Part shown: positions 35,257-42,342 of the stretch, in pieces | Layout of the letters: each line of letters opens with the position of its first letter | Position numbering within the stretch: position 1 is the stretch's first letter | Assembly: GCA_030538235.1 (NCBI GenBank) | Contig: JAUNUJ010000011.1 | Coordinates: 23,358-87,357, forward strand | Length of the DNA stretch: 64,000 nucleotides | Reading direction: 5' to 3' | DNA from: Alcaligenaceae bacterium | GTDB taxonomy: Bacteria; Pseudomonadota; Gammaproteobacteria; Burkholderiales; Burkholderiaceae_B | The notes under the pieces: generated by a model | The model's database searches: none | What the model was told of the DNA's origin: nothing | Seen by the model: only the letters and a program-made list of their open reading frames with translations | Made by a program: the position numbers and the translations under genes

Positions 35257-36414
35257 GTTCCGGCTAGAACTCATATCTCAATCAGTTATACTCTCGCATC
35301 GTTGAACCACTTCTCGGACTGCGTTCCGGCTAGAGCTCATATCTCAATCAGTTATACTGCATATCGCCCCGTTCTGTTCTGATTCCTTGTTCCGGCTAGA
35401 GCTCATATCTCAATCAGTTATACTAGGCCGTGGGCGACCGGCAGTTGCTGACAAGTTCCGGCTAGAGCTCATATCTCAATCAGTTATACTGATGAAGCCT
35501 CGCAATTGGATACATTTGTAGTTCCGGCTAGAGCTCATATCTCAATCAGTTATACTTTGAATTGCATATCACGGTGCAAACGCAAAGTTCCGGCTAGAGC
35601 TCATATCTCAATCAGTTATACTTGCTCCACTGCTTTGGATATTTGGTTTCATGTTCCGGCTAGAGCTCATATCTCAATCAGTTATACTTTTACTCATAAA
35701 GATAACATTCCGGGTTCTGTTCCGGCTAGAGCTCATATCTCAATCAGTTATACTTTGATCTTCCGTAATAACCGGTAGTTCTGAGTTCCGGCTAGAGCTC
35801 ATATCTCAATCAGTTATACTCCCATACTGTACAGATGAACTCGGGCAGTTGTTCCGGCTAGAGCTCATATCTCAATCAGTTATACTAGATCATCAAACAT
35901 ATAAACCATGCTGCTAGTTCCGGCTAGAGCTCATATCTCAATCAGTTATACTTCAGTTACGGTTTTTGCGAGCCTTTATTCAGTTCCGGCTAGAGCTCAT
36001 ATCTCAATCAGTTATACTACAGCGGCTTTAGCTGCTCTGCGGTCTCTAGTTCCGGCTAGAGCTCATATCTCAATCAGTTATACTCGAAGGAGCTTCCAAA
36101 CCTGCCTCAACTAAGTTCCGGCTAGAGCTCATATCTCAATCAGTTATACTTCAATCAGTGGTTGTACATGAGCTAGCTCAGTTCCGGCTAGAGCTCATAT
36201 CTCAATCAGTTATACTAAGGTGATTGCACGCCGGTAGAATTAGCCAGTTCCGGCTAGAGCTCATATCTCAATCAGTTATACTCACGATGGCTAAGATTGC
36301 CGCACGCGACAAGTTCCGGCTAGAGCTCATATCTCAATCAGTTATACTCTATCCCGATTTCGCATCAGCGCCTAATGTGTTCCGGCTAGAGCTCATATCT
36401 CAATCAGTTATACT
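35257..36414 (+). CRISPR. Type II-C CRISPR array, 18 repeats and 17 spacers
   Basis: Eighteen 36-base repeats (beginning GTTCCGGCTAGAGCTC and ending CAATCAGTTATACT) alternate with seventeen spacers, each exactly 30 bases, giving a strict 66-base period; repeat n starts at 35257 + 66(n-1). All repeats appear identical except the first, which has A for G at its 13th base (35269). The repeat's first 29 bases are largely complementary to the tracrRNA candidate at 40.88 kb, which fixes the crRNA strand as plus. The last six bases, TATACT, are a good -10 hexamer pointing into each spacer, as in Neisseria II-C arrays. Spacers show no match I could see elsewhere in the window. Confidence 0.98.
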
Positions 36415-36482: not shown

Positions 36483-36809
36483 TCAGAACAATTCAAATTG
36501 ATCCGGTGATTTTTTATCGGGCTGTTGTACTTGCCCATGAAAAGATATAATTCTTTCATACTGTTTATCCGTTAATTGCATAATATTAACTTTGCCACCC
36601 TTAGGTAAGGCTCTCTGAATTTTTTGACAACACGTATCAATTTGTTTGGCACTCGAAAAGAATCGCATATACACACTAAACTGCGCCATTTCGAATCCTT
36701 GATCTAATAAGAAGTTGCGGAATTCAGTAGCTTCTTGTCTTTCTGCCTTCTGACTAACAGGTAAATCAAACATGACAACAATCCACATAAGCCTATACCC
36801 CGATAACAT
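36483..36809 (-). CDS. cas2: CRISPR-associated endonuclease Cas2
   Basis: Cas2 is the dimeric core of the Cas1-Cas2 spacer integrase. The 108-residue protein has the ferredoxin-like beginning RLMWIVVMFDLPVSQKAERQ with the conserved Asp, then FRNFLLDQGFEMAQFSVYMR and VNIMQLTDKQYERIISFHG, as in type II Cas2. It starts nine bases after cas1 ends and is the cas gene nearest the array. It appears full length. Confidence 0.95.
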   Translation of the reverse strand: MLSGYRLMWIVVMFDLPVSQKAERQEATEFRNFLLDQGFEMAQFSVYMRFFSSAKQIDTCCQKIQRALPKGGKVNIMQLTDKQYERIISFHGQVQQPDKKSPDQFELF

Positions 36810-36818
36810 GCCAGCCTC

Positions 36819-37739
36819 CTAAATGATATCCCCTAATGCAAAGGGTTCACTAACAAGTGGTAAATCCAACCTATCTTTTTCACCTAGAAAAACTTTCGCT
36901 AAAGAGACCGCCAGTTTTTGAGCGCACACTGTTACTGGGGTCGCTCCAGCTTGAGTTAACATATCGGAATACATGATACGAACTAATACTCTTTTTGTAT
37001 CTGGCGTGATTTCACATAAGTCTTTCTGCGCTAATCTAAACACGCCTAAATCTACTAAAGGACGAAAAGGCTCAATTAAATCATCTACCAATCGCATAGC
37101 ATTTAACGCATTACTATGGTGCAAGCCGATTGCCGGGTGAAGTCCTGCCGCAACAACGGCTCTAGCTACAGTAGCACGTAATACTGTATAACCATAATTC
37201 AACAAAGCATTAATATCATCGGCTTCTCTGTTTCTTCGAAATGAGTTGCCAAATAATAAAGTCCAGTATCTACGCGCTGCTTGAGCTTCAATATTATCAG
37301 GATCACCACTTCTAACTTTTTTAATCAATGAAGAAACTGGGACACTTGGCTCTCCAATAGCATTTAAAACACTGACTTGTTGCTCTAATTTACTCCGAAC
37401 TATACTTGCCCAAAGTTGTTTTTTTAAAGGGCGTTTGGCCTCAATTTGTGCGTCAATTCGTTTTGAGGTCTCATAATTACCATCAATTGGCCAAAGCATA
37501 CCAACAGCATTATGGTTTGATGCACATAAAACAAAAGGAGATCCTTGTTCCGCTAGAGCTACTAACAAATTATTTGAATATGAAAGGCCATGACTATTCG
37601 CAATCACAGCACAGATATCATCAATAGGTACACGGCCTATTTCTTGCCCCTCGCCTTCTGTGCTTTTGACTAACAAAAAACCTCTGAATAAAGACAAATG
37701 GCGATAATTCTCAGCAATTTCAACTATTCGTCCTACCAT
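36819..37739 (-). CDS. cas1: CRISPR-associated endonuclease Cas1 (type II)
   Basis: Cas1 catalyses integration of new spacers. The 306-residue protein has the N-terminal beta region (GRIVEIAENYRHLSLFRGFL) and the helical catalytic domain with NIEAQAARRYWTLLFG (the metal-binding Glu), AAGLHPAIGLHHSNALNAM (the His) and VDDLIEPFRPLVDLGVFRL (the Asp), so all metal ligands are present. It lies six bases after cas9 and nine before cas2. The gene is open throughout, so acquisition genes are intact although cas9 is interrupted. Confidence 0.96.
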   Translation of the reverse strand: MVGRIVEIAENYRHLSLFRGFLLVKSTEGEGQEIGRVPIDDICAVIANSHGLSYSNNLLVALAEQGSPFVLCASNHNAVGMLWPIDGNYETSKRIDAQIEAKRPLKKQLWASIVRSKLEQQVSVLNAIGEPSVPVSSLIKKVRSGDPDNIEAQAARRYWTLLFGNSFRRNREADDINALLNYGYTVLRATVARAVVAAGLHPAIGLHHSNALNAMRLVDDLIEPFRPLVDLGVFRLAQKDLCEITPDTKRVLVRIMYSDMLTQAGATPVTVCAQKLAVSLAKVFLGEKDRLDLPLVSEPFALGDII

Positions 37740-37745
37740 AGCCTA

Positions 37746-40700
37746 TTACTCCTTAAATCCTGGATCTCTAAGTTTTCCAGTGATTGAAATAGTAACTTGA
37801 CGCGCACGAGCTTTTTGAAGCGAACTTGCTTTTTTACTCACATAATTAAATGGATCTTTTTTATCTCTATTACGAGCATCCACATTTGCCTCATTATGAG
37901 GAGCCAAGAATATTTGTCCATTACTGCTTATTGTACACACTCGAAAAACTTGTTCAAGCCCATTATGTTCTAAACGTAGCATATCCCCTCTCATTAAGCG
38001 CATAACTAAAGGGCTACCATTTTGTGCTTTAAATTTATTACGCAATTGAGAAACATCACCCGACTTACGAACGATCTGATAAGCCTGGTAAGTTGAAACA
38101 ATCATAGATTGCCATTTCCCATCTTCTTTTCTATAGATTTCAATACAGTAATTGCTATCACCTTTGTATGCTTTATAAGGCTTAGGGGATCCATCAAAAA
38201 GCACGCCATGACGTTCTATAGCCTTATTACTTGAAATTGGAATGACGGCCTTTAAGTTTTCTACTACCTCAACACGTTTACCATCTTCCAGTTTATGATG
38301 TCTAACTCGTCCCCCTCCTAATAGACCATAGGCCGTTTCATTGTGCATCGCTCCTTGATGACCATGCTCTGGTTTATGACTGACCCAAATATTTTCAATA
38401 GCACGGCTTACATGATTCTGATATGTGGGCCAAGGTAAAGCCAAACCCTCTAATAAACGACTTTTTTCTTGTTTTCGTGCATTTTGATTTGCCTTAACAA
38501 CTCGCTGCAACAATGAAGGATCCGTAACACCAATTACACAAGCATCAATTGCATGGTGGCGGTGATCATAACGATTCTTTTCACCGTTAACATCCAATAT
38601 ATGATTTAAACCAAAGTGCCTTCTCAACATGGCGGTCAATTGTCCCGGAATGACCCATGTGTTTGCGGGACAAATCGCAGTTACATACTCTCTTACGACT
38701 TTACTCAAATACCTCGTATCATTAAGGGCCTTCGCTAAAAACTCCTCTTGGTTTAACCATTGTTGAAGGCCATCTGGGGCAAAACGATACATTTTTTCTT
38801 TTTTCATACTCTTAGCACGCAAAAGAATTTTTTCATACTCATAGCCTTGGATAGGATTAATACCAAACGCCTCGTAAGGTGTTCTATTAGCTTTAAACTT
38901 ATTGACTTTGCGCAATGCTAAAGTCTTGTTATTCATACTGTCATCCAAGGTTTTTGAGAATGGTAATATATGCTCTATTTCAACCTCTCCATTAGGAGAA
39001 AACAATTTCTCAATGCTAATGTGCTCTCCAGAATATGGGCAAACCCTATCCATGGGATTAAAAGCCAGTTCTTCCCATAAAATCATTTTCTGTAAATCAG
39101 CTAGACTAACTAAATAATCTGGTTTACCAGTGCATTTTGAAATTTCTTTTCTTCTTAATTCGTTTTTCTGGGCATTGATTTGTTGCTCTTTTCTAATCCT
39201 CTCTCGTTCTTTCTTACCGCGTTTAAGATCTCGTGCTAACTCAATAACAACTTGTGTCGGGTGACCATATTCCTTGATTAGCTGATTAACTAAACCTCAT
39301 ACTTGATTTAACCCTATATGAACTGTTGGGTTATTAATTTTGCCATAGCGTACTTCAGGAATGTCTTCAGGATTGCTCGTACCAAATCCTACCTGTCTTT
39401 GCAAAATTTCACCGTAGTATGGTAATTCATCTAATATTTCACCATCAGCACTTTTATCTAAAACACTGTGACTCTCAAACCCAGCTGCCACTACGGCTTT
39501 ATCATAAGTAATGACACTCTCTTTAAGCTTAGGCAAAATAAGATTTAATGCTCTCTCAGACAGTGCTCCGTAACCACTCTGTAAAGAGGTGTTGGCAATA
39601 AGCTTTGCAGTCTCTTGGGTTACCTCAGTATTAATTGTTAACCAAGTGATTAACTCACTTTCATTTTCAAGCTCTAATAGCTGTTTAACAATTTCTGTTT
39701 GTTTAACAAGACCGAATTTAAACCATTTAGTCCCAAATAAATTTTTGCCACTTAAAATAGCTGAGGTAGTATTACCCAACACCTCTACGTTATTCTCATC
39801 CTCGCCACTAAACCTAACCGTACTAGGAAAATTAAGTACTTTACGTAATTGAGTGAATGTACGTTTTTTATATTTTTCCAATTCTTGTACAATTAAATCT
39901 CGTTGTTCAAGTGTTAACTCTATCGGCAACAATTGCTCATTCAAATAACGTAAATGATTCGCTGTTTGATAGATTCTAGACTGCTGCACAAAAGGCAATG
40001 CTAGCGCTGCACGCTTCTCGTCAGTTAAAAAGGTACAGCGACCCGGATCAACCGGCCTTAAAGGGCGTTGAAATAATAATGTGTACTTAAGTCTCTGCTT
40101 TGCTTCGTAGTTATAAAGCTTGGGATTATATCGCTGTTGAACAGTCCACAATTGCTCAAACTCATCCTCAACCATGCTACGATCTATATAAAAATCGTAG
40201 TTTTTATCTTTTTTATTCCTACCACTTTCTTGTGGGATTAATGTTGTTCGTAATCGAGCTCTTACAGTTTTACCTTTAAGCATGCGCTGATAAAGGACTT
40301 CACCTACTGTACGTGCACCAACAGATTTTAAATACGTTTTAAAATCTGCTATCGCTGCTTTCATAACACTATTTTCATTATCTACTTTATCTGTTTTACG
40401 ATTACTTTTAAAACCACGACGCTGATTGATATGGAATAAAGCTCGTCCAAACTCTTCTGGAGTCAGAGCATGGTCAAGCCCCCTAGCTCTTAATTCATAT
40501 GGATTCAATTTAACTAAGGCCTTGCGTTGTTGCTCATCTTCAGGAAAAAAACCATATCTTACTAACTGACGTAGCATAGTGTTTTTCCGTTGTAAAAGAC
40601 GATCTCTACGACGACGGGCTGAACGCGCATCTCGTCTAGATACTGCAAGTGATGTACCATCTTTTGGATTTCGCCCATCAGAGAAAATTCTCACACCAGA

Positions 40701-40811
40701 GCGGATAATGGCCTTTGGAATCCAAGGCCCTGTTTCTAATTCTTTTTGAAGAAGAAATATTGCCCAACCGATTGAGTTACTTCCCACATCTAACGCTAAA
40801 CGATAATGCAT
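37746..40811 (-). pseudogene. cas9: Cas9 (type II-C) interrupted by one in-frame TGA
   Basis: Read leftward from ATG 40811 (GAGG nine bases upstream; an in-frame TTG at 40844 is less likely), the frame encodes 1021 codons before the final stop, the size of II-C Cas9. It contains RuvC-I (ALDVGSNSIGWAIF, Asp8), an Arg-rich bridge helix (SRRDARSARRRRDRLLQRK), REC lobe, RuvC-II (TQVVIELARDLKRG, about 519-530), HNH (VEIEHILPFSKTL, His about 614) and RuvC-III (YDHRHHAIDACVIG, about 750). Codon 505, at 39297-39299, is TGA. Both sides are in the same frame, and LNQV-stop-GLVNQL reads like a Cas9 with CGA (Arg) changed to TGA. Without readthrough only a 504-residue REC/RuvC-I fragment is made; an internal ATG at 39086 could start an HNH-containing C-terminal piece. 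Confidence 0.9.
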
Positions 40812-40833: not shown

Positions 40834-40862
40834 TTTACAAACAAATAAAAAAACGATAAAAT
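40834..40862 (+). promoter_or_regulatory. Predicted sigma-70 promoter of the tracrRNA
   Basis: TTTACA at 40834-40839 and TAAAAT at 40857-40862 are separated by 17 bases, one or two mismatches from consensus each. Transcription would start near 40869, just before the anti-repeat. The element overlaps the cas9 5' region on the other strand. Confidence 0.6.
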
Positions 40863-40868
40863 ATAACT

Positions 40869-40964
40869 TCATCAATAATTGATTGAGATATGAGCTTTAG
40901 ACGCTAACAAGCTTATTAAAGCACAAAATGAAGAGGCCGCTATATGCGGTCTCTTGCTTTTCTT
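40869..40964 (+). ncRNA. tracrRNA of the type II-C system
   Basis: TGATTGAGATATGAGCT at 40880-40896 is the exact complement of 17 bases within the CRISPR repeat, and complementarity continues imperfectly (TTAGACGCTAAC) to about 40908, giving the usual bulged anti-repeat. A short GCTT/AAGC hairpin follows. The RNA ends in a terminator whose stem is AAGAGGCCGC (40931-40940) with GCGGTCTCTT (40946-40955), then GCTTTTCTT. It is divergent from cas9, and it is intact although cas9 is interrupted. Confidence 0.88.
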
Positions 40965-41020
40965 CGGTCTCATTTTCAGTCAATGATCTCATACAATTTC
41001 AATCCTAAAAAAAACTCTAA

Positions 41021-41614
41021 TTAAATATTAGTCGGACGTGAGGGATGATAGCGGTCTAATATTTGCTGTTCTATTCGAGTATCATCTTTAAATACCAAAG
41101 AAACTGCCTCTGTAATTGCTAACCATATCCCGGGCTCTTTTAGTATAGGCATCTCTTTCGCAAGCACATTGCTTAATTTCCCTCGATTTTGTTCAAGCGA
41201 ACGTAACACCCTGTCCGCTTGCAAATCAGGCATTTCAACAATTTCATTGAGAGCAAGACGTGCGCGCCCATGATTATATAAATACCTTAACTGTTCACGC
41301 ATCTTTTCTGTTAACGTCCGATTAATGATACGCGAAATAAATACCACATGGCTGCTTAGATTAGAATAACGCCACAAGGGACGCGCCTTGTCATCCTCAT
41401 TAAATTTCATATTCGAAACAACGCCATCAGGGTAAGTTGTATGAATTTCCTCAAAAACAATACTCTCTCGCACAAGCTCCATCAAAAGCATAAAAACATC
41501 ATTCAACACTAAATCATAGTTTCGACGCTCACCAAAACCGTCTGTAATCACCGAAGATACGGGCAATATTATTGGCTCAGGCACAACACCATCACGTCGC
41601 AAAGTATCATTTAA
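41021..41614 (-). pseudogene. C-terminal remnant of a Fic-family (AMP-transferase type) protein
   Basis: Reading leftward from the break near 41614 the fragment begins NDTLRRDGVVPEPIILPVSS and continues with YLYNHGRARLALNEIVEMPD and LRSLEQNRGKLSNVLAKEM. These are the C-terminal winged-helix parts of large bacterial Fic proteins (the Fic signature is followed by DG-x-VP-x-x-I-x-PVS, then IV-x-MPD-x-x and QN-x-GxLS). The Fic core HPFxxGNGR is absent, and a TAG codon lies just upstream in frame. A TTG at 41602 could start a 193-residue product, but it would have no catalytic part. The truncated end faces another broken gene on the opposite strand. Confidence 0.65.
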
Positions 41615-41619
41615 AGGCT

Positions 41620-42342
41620 ATGTACTTTCCGCAAGATCTGGACTGGGAATTTGACGCTATTAGTAAGTTGTAAAAGAAACATCAGGATTACGTTGATGAA
41701 TTCGACACAGATCAAACTGCCACTCAAACCCAAGGCGAACAAGATGATATCGGTGATGGTCATTCATTTTTTGATGAGTTTTTTAATGAATTCTTCAAAC
41801 GTCAACAAGAAGAAATTAACGAACAACGTTATGAAGAAAAGCAAGCCTTAAAGAAACTAATTAAATCCTCATCCATCAACCGCCTATTTCGAAAGATTGC
41901 CGCTGTTTTACACCCAGACAAAGAAACTAACGAATCACTACGAGAACAGAAAAACAGTTTGATGAGTGAACTAGTACAGGCACGGAAAAACAATGACATT
42001 CTGCGCATCTTTGAATTTTACGCTAATTATGTGGGTGGTTCCCCACTTGAGGAGCTGGGCGAAAGCCTTGACGGCGTCAGCGAATTACTTGAGCGCCAAT
42101 ATAAAGATTTGCTTAAGATGAAAAATGAAATCCTAAACGAGAATCCAAGGGCTGGTATCTTATACCAGCAATTCCACCGCAAATCTACAACTGCTACTTC
42201 TCGCGCGATTAATAAACACTTAAAATTAATCGAAGTGCAAACAAAAATGGTTCAAAGAATCTGCCAAGAGACGACTAGTATAAAAAAACTTAAGCCCTAC
42301 CTTGAGTTACATTATGACTTGTTTTCTCATGGAAAAATGTAG
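41620..42342 (+). pseudogene. J-domain-like protein gene with an in-frame stop
   Basis: From ATG 41620 the frame reads MYFPQDLDWEFDAISKL, TAA at 41671, then continues in the same frame without interruption to 42342: KKHQDYVDEFDTDQTATQTQ, HSFFDEFFNEFFKRQQEEIN, and NRLFRKIAAVLHPDKETNES, which carries the HPD tripeptide of a J-domain, followed by a helical C-terminal half (ILRIFEFYANYVGG). The TAA is most simply a mutated Gln codon. An ATG at 41959 gives an intact 127-residue C-terminal product, but the J-like part lies before it. It may have been longer on the left, where it abuts the Fic remnant. Confidence 0.6.

Follow-up and report, generated by a model that had tools for sequence, protein, structure and literature searches.

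Natural nonsense alleles of cas9 are already known, and the genes of clustered regularly interspaced short palindromic repeat (CRISPR) systems have been found damaged in several bacteria; the papers concerned are cited here from excerpts. In Mycoplasma gallisepticum, four truncated forms of cas9 have been described, of which three arose via single changes to stop codons and one via a frameshift (PMC11893278). The cas9 of Mycoplasma arthritidis is likewise disrupted and stop-bearing, and the same source counts at least 8 inactivated or degraded systems among 21 from mollicutes (PMC6882279). Also, spontaneous nonsense mutations have been reported in cas10 and cas6 of S. epidermidis, and frameshifts arise in cas genes of this species as well (PMC3784566). 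The available passages of another paper (PMC4607530) describe no damage to cas9. Here we analyse a type II-C locus in a window of 64,000 nucleotides (nt) from an Alcaligenaceae bacterium (assembly GCA_030538235.1, contig JAUNUJ010000011.1, positions 23,358 to 87,357), in which cas9 is interrupted by a single in-frame TGA codon. Judged from the sequence, this codon very probably reflects a recent nonsense mutation that would have removed Cas9 interference at the locus.

The TGA lies on the minus strand (39299-39297) and cuts an otherwise open cas9 frame of 1,021 codons. The 5' piece (39297..40811) runs for 504 codons from ATG 40811, where a Shine-Dalgarno match of -5.8 kcal/mol is found, to the TGA, and the 3' piece (37746..39296) holds 516 open codons followed by a TAA stop at 37748-37746. 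The TGA is the sole lesion, with neither a further stop nor a frameshift in the frame. Both pieces match the NCBIfam profile TIGR01865 (cas_Csn1) in succession, the 5' piece over 1-496 (E 6e-86) and the 3' piece in its best stretch over 499-830 (E 1e-94), and the 3' piece also matches PF13395 (HNH_4) and PF18541 (RuvC_III). Going by position, we take the 5' piece to comprise RuvC-I, the bridge helix and the REC region, whereas RuvC-II, HNH, RuvC-III and the C-terminal region fall in the 3' piece; the TGA is thus located between the REC region and RuvC-II. All motifs of a type II-C cas9 (RuvC-I, -II, -III and HNH) are found, though parted by the stop, and the catalytic residues are kept: D8 in RuvC-I, E524 in RuvC-II, H614 and N628 in HNH, and H752, H753 and D756 in RuvC-III. 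D8 is invariant in all of the relatives that have a letter at this place (29 of 31), and the other catalytic residues checked are conserved in 31 of 31. Further, the Cas9 of Pelistega suis (locus L036) aligns with the window over residues 1-1018 of its 1018 at 62% identity, with one TGA inside the alignment. A scan of the window for coding-like frames gave eight same-frame neighbour pairs parted by one stop; seven are two different genes, judged by family matches or, in one pair, by being two different permeases, and the eighth is cas9. These observations confirm what an earlier note on this DNA had proposed, namely that a single TGA splits one otherwise intact type II-C cas9 in which the RuvC-I, RuvC-II, HNH and RuvC-III residues are all present.

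A scan of genome contigs yielded 31 Cas9 loci, among which a full-length cas9 in one frame is the rule (27/31); three loci run into a contig edge (L020, L024, L035), and L025 has its own deletion and frameshift, which break the gene. The Cas9 alignment contained 32 rows besides the window, made up of the 31 loci and L003; the distant L004 and L005 were not part of it. Where the window has its TGA, arginine stands in 30 of the 31 alignable rows and histidine in one (L011), the 32nd row (L025) being misaligned by its deletion there. The codons at this column include CGC in 16 of the 31 rows and CGA in 3, and a one-step nonsense change at an arginine codon would be the simplest origin of the stop. 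The earlier note had suggested a change from CGA to TGA just before RuvC-II; the arginine position and its place hold good, while CGA is a possible ancestral codon, CGC being the commoner of the two among the relatives.

The P. suis Cas9, used as a query, found matches in 11 of 268 genomes of the family (E <=1e-20) and in 37 of 399 genomes of the order (E <=1e-30), with three genomes shared. Among these 45 distinct genomes, a stop within the matched stretch occurs only in the window's genome, a count that is blind to frameshifts and to stops outside the matched stretch, many of the matches being partial. In the window's own genus, one genome (G005) encodes a distant Cas9 whose frame has 1,168 codons, and a genome of the same family and a different genus (G240) has a Cas9 identical to that of P. 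suis, a species placed in Alcaligenaceae by the NCBI taxonomy. The host is hence probably a betaproteobacterium from this neighbourhood. The mean identity to 29 relatives is 0.563 for the window's Cas9 and 0.565 for that of P. suis. By this measure, divergence is no greater in the window's Cas9 than in its P. suis counterpart, on which ground a long decay of cas9 is rejected. As a separate observation, the cas9 in a metagenome-assembled genome of Comamonadaceae (L025:4900-5100) has a deletion of about 110 bases with a frameshift, which removes RuvC-II near the place of the window's TGA and could be either real or an assembly fault.

The frames between 40811 and 36483 are those of cas9, cas1 and cas2 only, with the array next to them and without csn2 or cas4, and this gene content points to type II-C. 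By sequence, cas1 (36819..37739, minus strand; TIGR03639) and cas2 (36483..36809, minus strand; TIGR01573) are intact, keeping 98 of 99 and 46 of 46 columns, respectively, that are invariant among 29 loci. The CRISPR array (35257..36414, plus strand) consists of 18 repeats of 36 nt and 17 spacers of 30 nt; 17 of the 18 repeats are identical, the other has one mismatch, and a separate search recovered 17 repeat units in register. Upstream of cas9, on the plus strand, lies a predicted trans-activating CRISPR RNA (tracrRNA; 40868..40965, ends approximate), composed of an anti-repeat identified by BLAST, stem-loops and a terminator-like site at 40931-40955. Its anti-repeat:repeat duplex is predicted at -41.8 kcal/mol, and three terminator-like sites were found against 0.2 expected by chance, while the promoter-like site at 40834-40862 is weak (one found vs 1.5 expected). 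The array, tracrRNA, cas1 and cas2 thus appear undamaged, as had been claimed, and together with the lone stop in cas9 this agrees with the earlier view that the loss, if real, is recent.

The lesion would be young because cas9 contains no second stop or frameshift. Random point changes in cas9 would create a stop in 4.8% of cases at a kappa of 2 (4.2-5.5% at other kappa values), and arithmetic on this rate limits neutral drift since the event, at the 95% level, to at most about 62 changes, which amounts to about 2% of the gene. With a premature stop, an intact remainder and no compensating expression signal found, the gene looks like a recently inactivated cas9. Translation would end at codon 505, leaving a 504-residue fragment with RuvC-I, the bridge helix and REC; this fragment would lack RuvC-II, HNH, RuvC-III and the part interacting with the protospacer-adjacent motif (PAM), and the II-C locus would lose DNA interference. 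In addition, polarity may lower expression of the downstream cas1-cas2. Such a loss is probably tolerated, as CRISPR immunity is often cheap to lose and the genome also holds a type III-D locus.

The type III-D locus (L057, L059; G000:C6:1-33900) has its own Cas1 and Cas2 and, in an inventory drawn from part of its frames, Cas10, Csm3-like and IIId-type Cas7, Cas5_IIId (Csx10), Cas6 and a CARF-PDDEXK nuclease. Its array counts 19 in-register repeat copies, of which the last is degenerate, and frames that we take by eye to be transposase-like lie between this array and the nuclease gene. Through this locus, the cell could retain interference in the absence of Cas9. Cas9 is required for adaptation in type II-A systems. 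For this reason, and because the type III-D locus has its own cas1 and cas2, the idea of an adaptation-only or RNA-guided non-cleaving state of the II-C locus, raised in the earlier note, is weakened. Spacer acquisition is also stated to require other Cas proteins in the excerpts of PMC6008519, which cites Heler 2015 and Wei 2015b.

The TGA might instead be a consensus or assembly error, in which case the organism would have an intact Cas9. A lone lesion with everything else intact by sequence is compatible with such an error. However, the assembly is of good quality (14 contigs, 2.43 Mb, 99.45% completeness, 0.08% contamination), among the eight same-frame pairs of the window a stop parts a single gene only in cas9 (a count that does not extend to frameshift errors), and a nonsense error within one 3 kb gene would be a priori rarer than a natural loss of cas9; we therefore regard an error as unlikely. 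UGA is often the leakiest of the bacterial stops, which speaks for some function despite the stop: leaky readthrough, or a two-piece Cas9 from a downstream restart, would leave an activity that is weak or altered (nicking or binding only). Each half is an open frame that retains its conserved catalytic residues, and later in-frame starts have better ribosome-binding matches, e.g. ATG 38936 (-3.1 kcal/mol) and ATG 37982 (-6.3 kcal/mol), both past the codon of the HNH histidine. The restart at 39086 on which the earlier note had based two-piece expression fares poorly: this ATG, the first in-frame start past the stop and 70 codons on, has no Shine-Dalgarno match (duplex of +0.6 kcal/mol, against -5.8 for cas9, -8.7 for cas1 and -10.2 for cas2), and its frame (37746..39086, minus strand) would give a product without RuvC-II and its E524. 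Moreover, the matched stretch is free of stops in all 44 other genomes that match Cas9, and conservation of the 3' part is expected anyway if the lesion is young; partial function is very unlikely. A stop kept on purpose, with low-level readthrough or assembling fragments yielding a II-C Cas9 that is weak or does not cleave, and with the type III-D locus doing the interference, has in our estimate only a slim chance; if it were true, the cas9 deletion in L025 would be a second loss of RuvC cleavage at the same place.

A different genetic code is ruled out, as TGA ends 7 of the 39 other long coding-like frames of the window (cas9 excluded) and RF2 is present in the genome, so that TGA acts as an ordinary stop in this organism. 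Decoding of UGA as selenocysteine does exist in the genome, which has tRNA-Sec (found by ARAGORN and by Rfam, 72.9 bits with a gathering cut-off of 47), selA, selB and selD, as well as an in-frame TGA in a formate dehydrogenase gene; SelB scores 405 bits against a cut-off of 242, which 2 of 14 control genomes also exceed. This machinery might be taken to favour a selenoprotein Cas9, a reading that the earlier note does not name. The formate dehydrogenase-N alpha gene (fdoG) of the same genome served as positive control for the hairpin of the selenocysteine insertion sequence (SECIS), and a hairpin of -18.9 kcal/mol was found within the 50 nt following the TGA that parts it. By contrast, the cas9 TGA has no SECIS-like hairpin (-5.1 kcal/mol, with 142 of 201 sampled cas9 50-mers folding equally well or better), shuffle z-scores for four stretches around it are 0.68, 0.19, -0.60 and -0.22, and neither cysteine nor selenocysteine occurs at its column among the 31 alignable relatives. 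Because of the missing hairpin and the arginine or histidine of the relatives, the chance that the cas9 TGA encodes selenocysteine is negligible. Also, anticodon TCA was found only in tRNA-Sec among the 32 tRNA places, all of which were scanned, in an incomplete list that contains no gene for Ala, Ile or Trp and stems from 150 scored candidates out of 159.

Some points weigh against a recent nonsense loss. A consensus error, although unlikely, would account for the TGA, and the incomplete tRNA list leaves room for a suppressor tRNA. Of the 416 columns on which 24 other rows fully agree, the window's Cas9 differs at 71 and that of P. suis at 62, a small excess. A missing Shine-Dalgarno match is not decisive, given the score of only 0.1 at another start, GTG 32824, and low-level natural readthrough of UGA would leave some full-length Cas9. 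Finally, the loss of function is a prediction from the sequence.

Self-targeting does not explain the loss of cas9, because no match of the 17 spacers to their own genome was found, and a self-targeting spacer as the cause is rejected. At E up to 1, spacers 4-17 and spacers 1-3 brought up only the array, the anti-repeat and one stretch of 22 nt (E 0.6), which spans the end of a repeat plus 6 nt of spacer 10. Spacers 4-17 (14 of the 17) found no match in a phage search, and in a plasmid search they led to one Limnohabitans record, matched at 66% along the whole array in 33 places and hence by its repeats. Three exact scans of viral contigs, which covered 3 of the 17 spacers (spacer 11 in its G201 variant, spacers 17 and 15 in part), gave 0 matches, and no Cas9 relative was confirmed among 19 candidate stretches in viral contigs. 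A further genome of the family has a 29/30 match to spacer 11 right at the edge of a contig (L063, G201:C147:3-32), where no PAM is legible. Spacer 16 has a 24/30 match in G013, within a frame that by eye is presumably an acyl-CoA dehydrogenase, and this match may be due to chance.

Several further features were observed around these subjects. Each repeat of the II-C array ends in TATACT, resembling a -10 element; the II-C repeats of Neisseria have their own promoters. Single stretches similar to the window's repeat occur in two genomes of the family in which the Cas9 search found nothing (L062, G088:C11:2688-2728, 31/36 identical; L065, G253:C2:249300-249338, 29/36) and may represent an orphan repeat or an anti-repeat. 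The selenocysteine genes selD, tRNA-Sec, selB and selA stand beside fdoG (L124, G000:C1:140000-159900), together with a frame that we judge by eye to be fdhE-like. Two opposed frames adjoin the tracrRNA at 41024-42339. The left one (41024..41617, minus strand) is coding-like, matches neither Pfam (41021-41602) nor NCBIfam (41024-41617) and is possibly a gene remnant. The right one (41674..42339, plus strand) is clearly a remnant; it follows an in-frame TAA at 41671-41673 and, set against relatives of 375 residues in the same genus, is about 150 residues short at the N-terminus.

If the nonsense loss is real, the locus is a further natural cas9 null caught early, with the array, predicted tracrRNA and adaptation genes retained and a type III-D locus alongside. 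It reveals no new mechanism; it offers a usable example for the study of CRISPR locus loss when a second system is present, and the same genome provides a clean control to tell a selenocysteine UGA from a plain stop. In its gene content the locus resembles that of P. suis, where a Cas9 62% identical to the window's is likewise encoded beside cas1 and cas2, although the P. suis cas9 is one open frame and that of the window has an internal TGA. The II-C locus of Bordetella pseudohinzii is similar too: cas1 and cas2 lie beside cas9, a putative tracrRNA is described upstream of the latter gene, and most of the spacers are 30 nt long (PMC4624362). As in M. arthritidis, a single stop-creating lesion lies in cas9 and the array is kept; there, however, the excerpts report a frameshift and a self-targeting spacer (PMC6882279), whereas the window has a substitution-type stop and no self-match for its 17 spacers. 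There is also a close likeness in kind to the M. gallisepticum alleles, in which, as far as the excerpts describe them, stops also arose by point changes, repeatedly and recently, while other parts of the locus were kept (PMC11893278). Those alleles come from many dated isolates, whereas ours is found in one betaproteobacterial genome, in a type II-C locus with a type III-D locus alongside.
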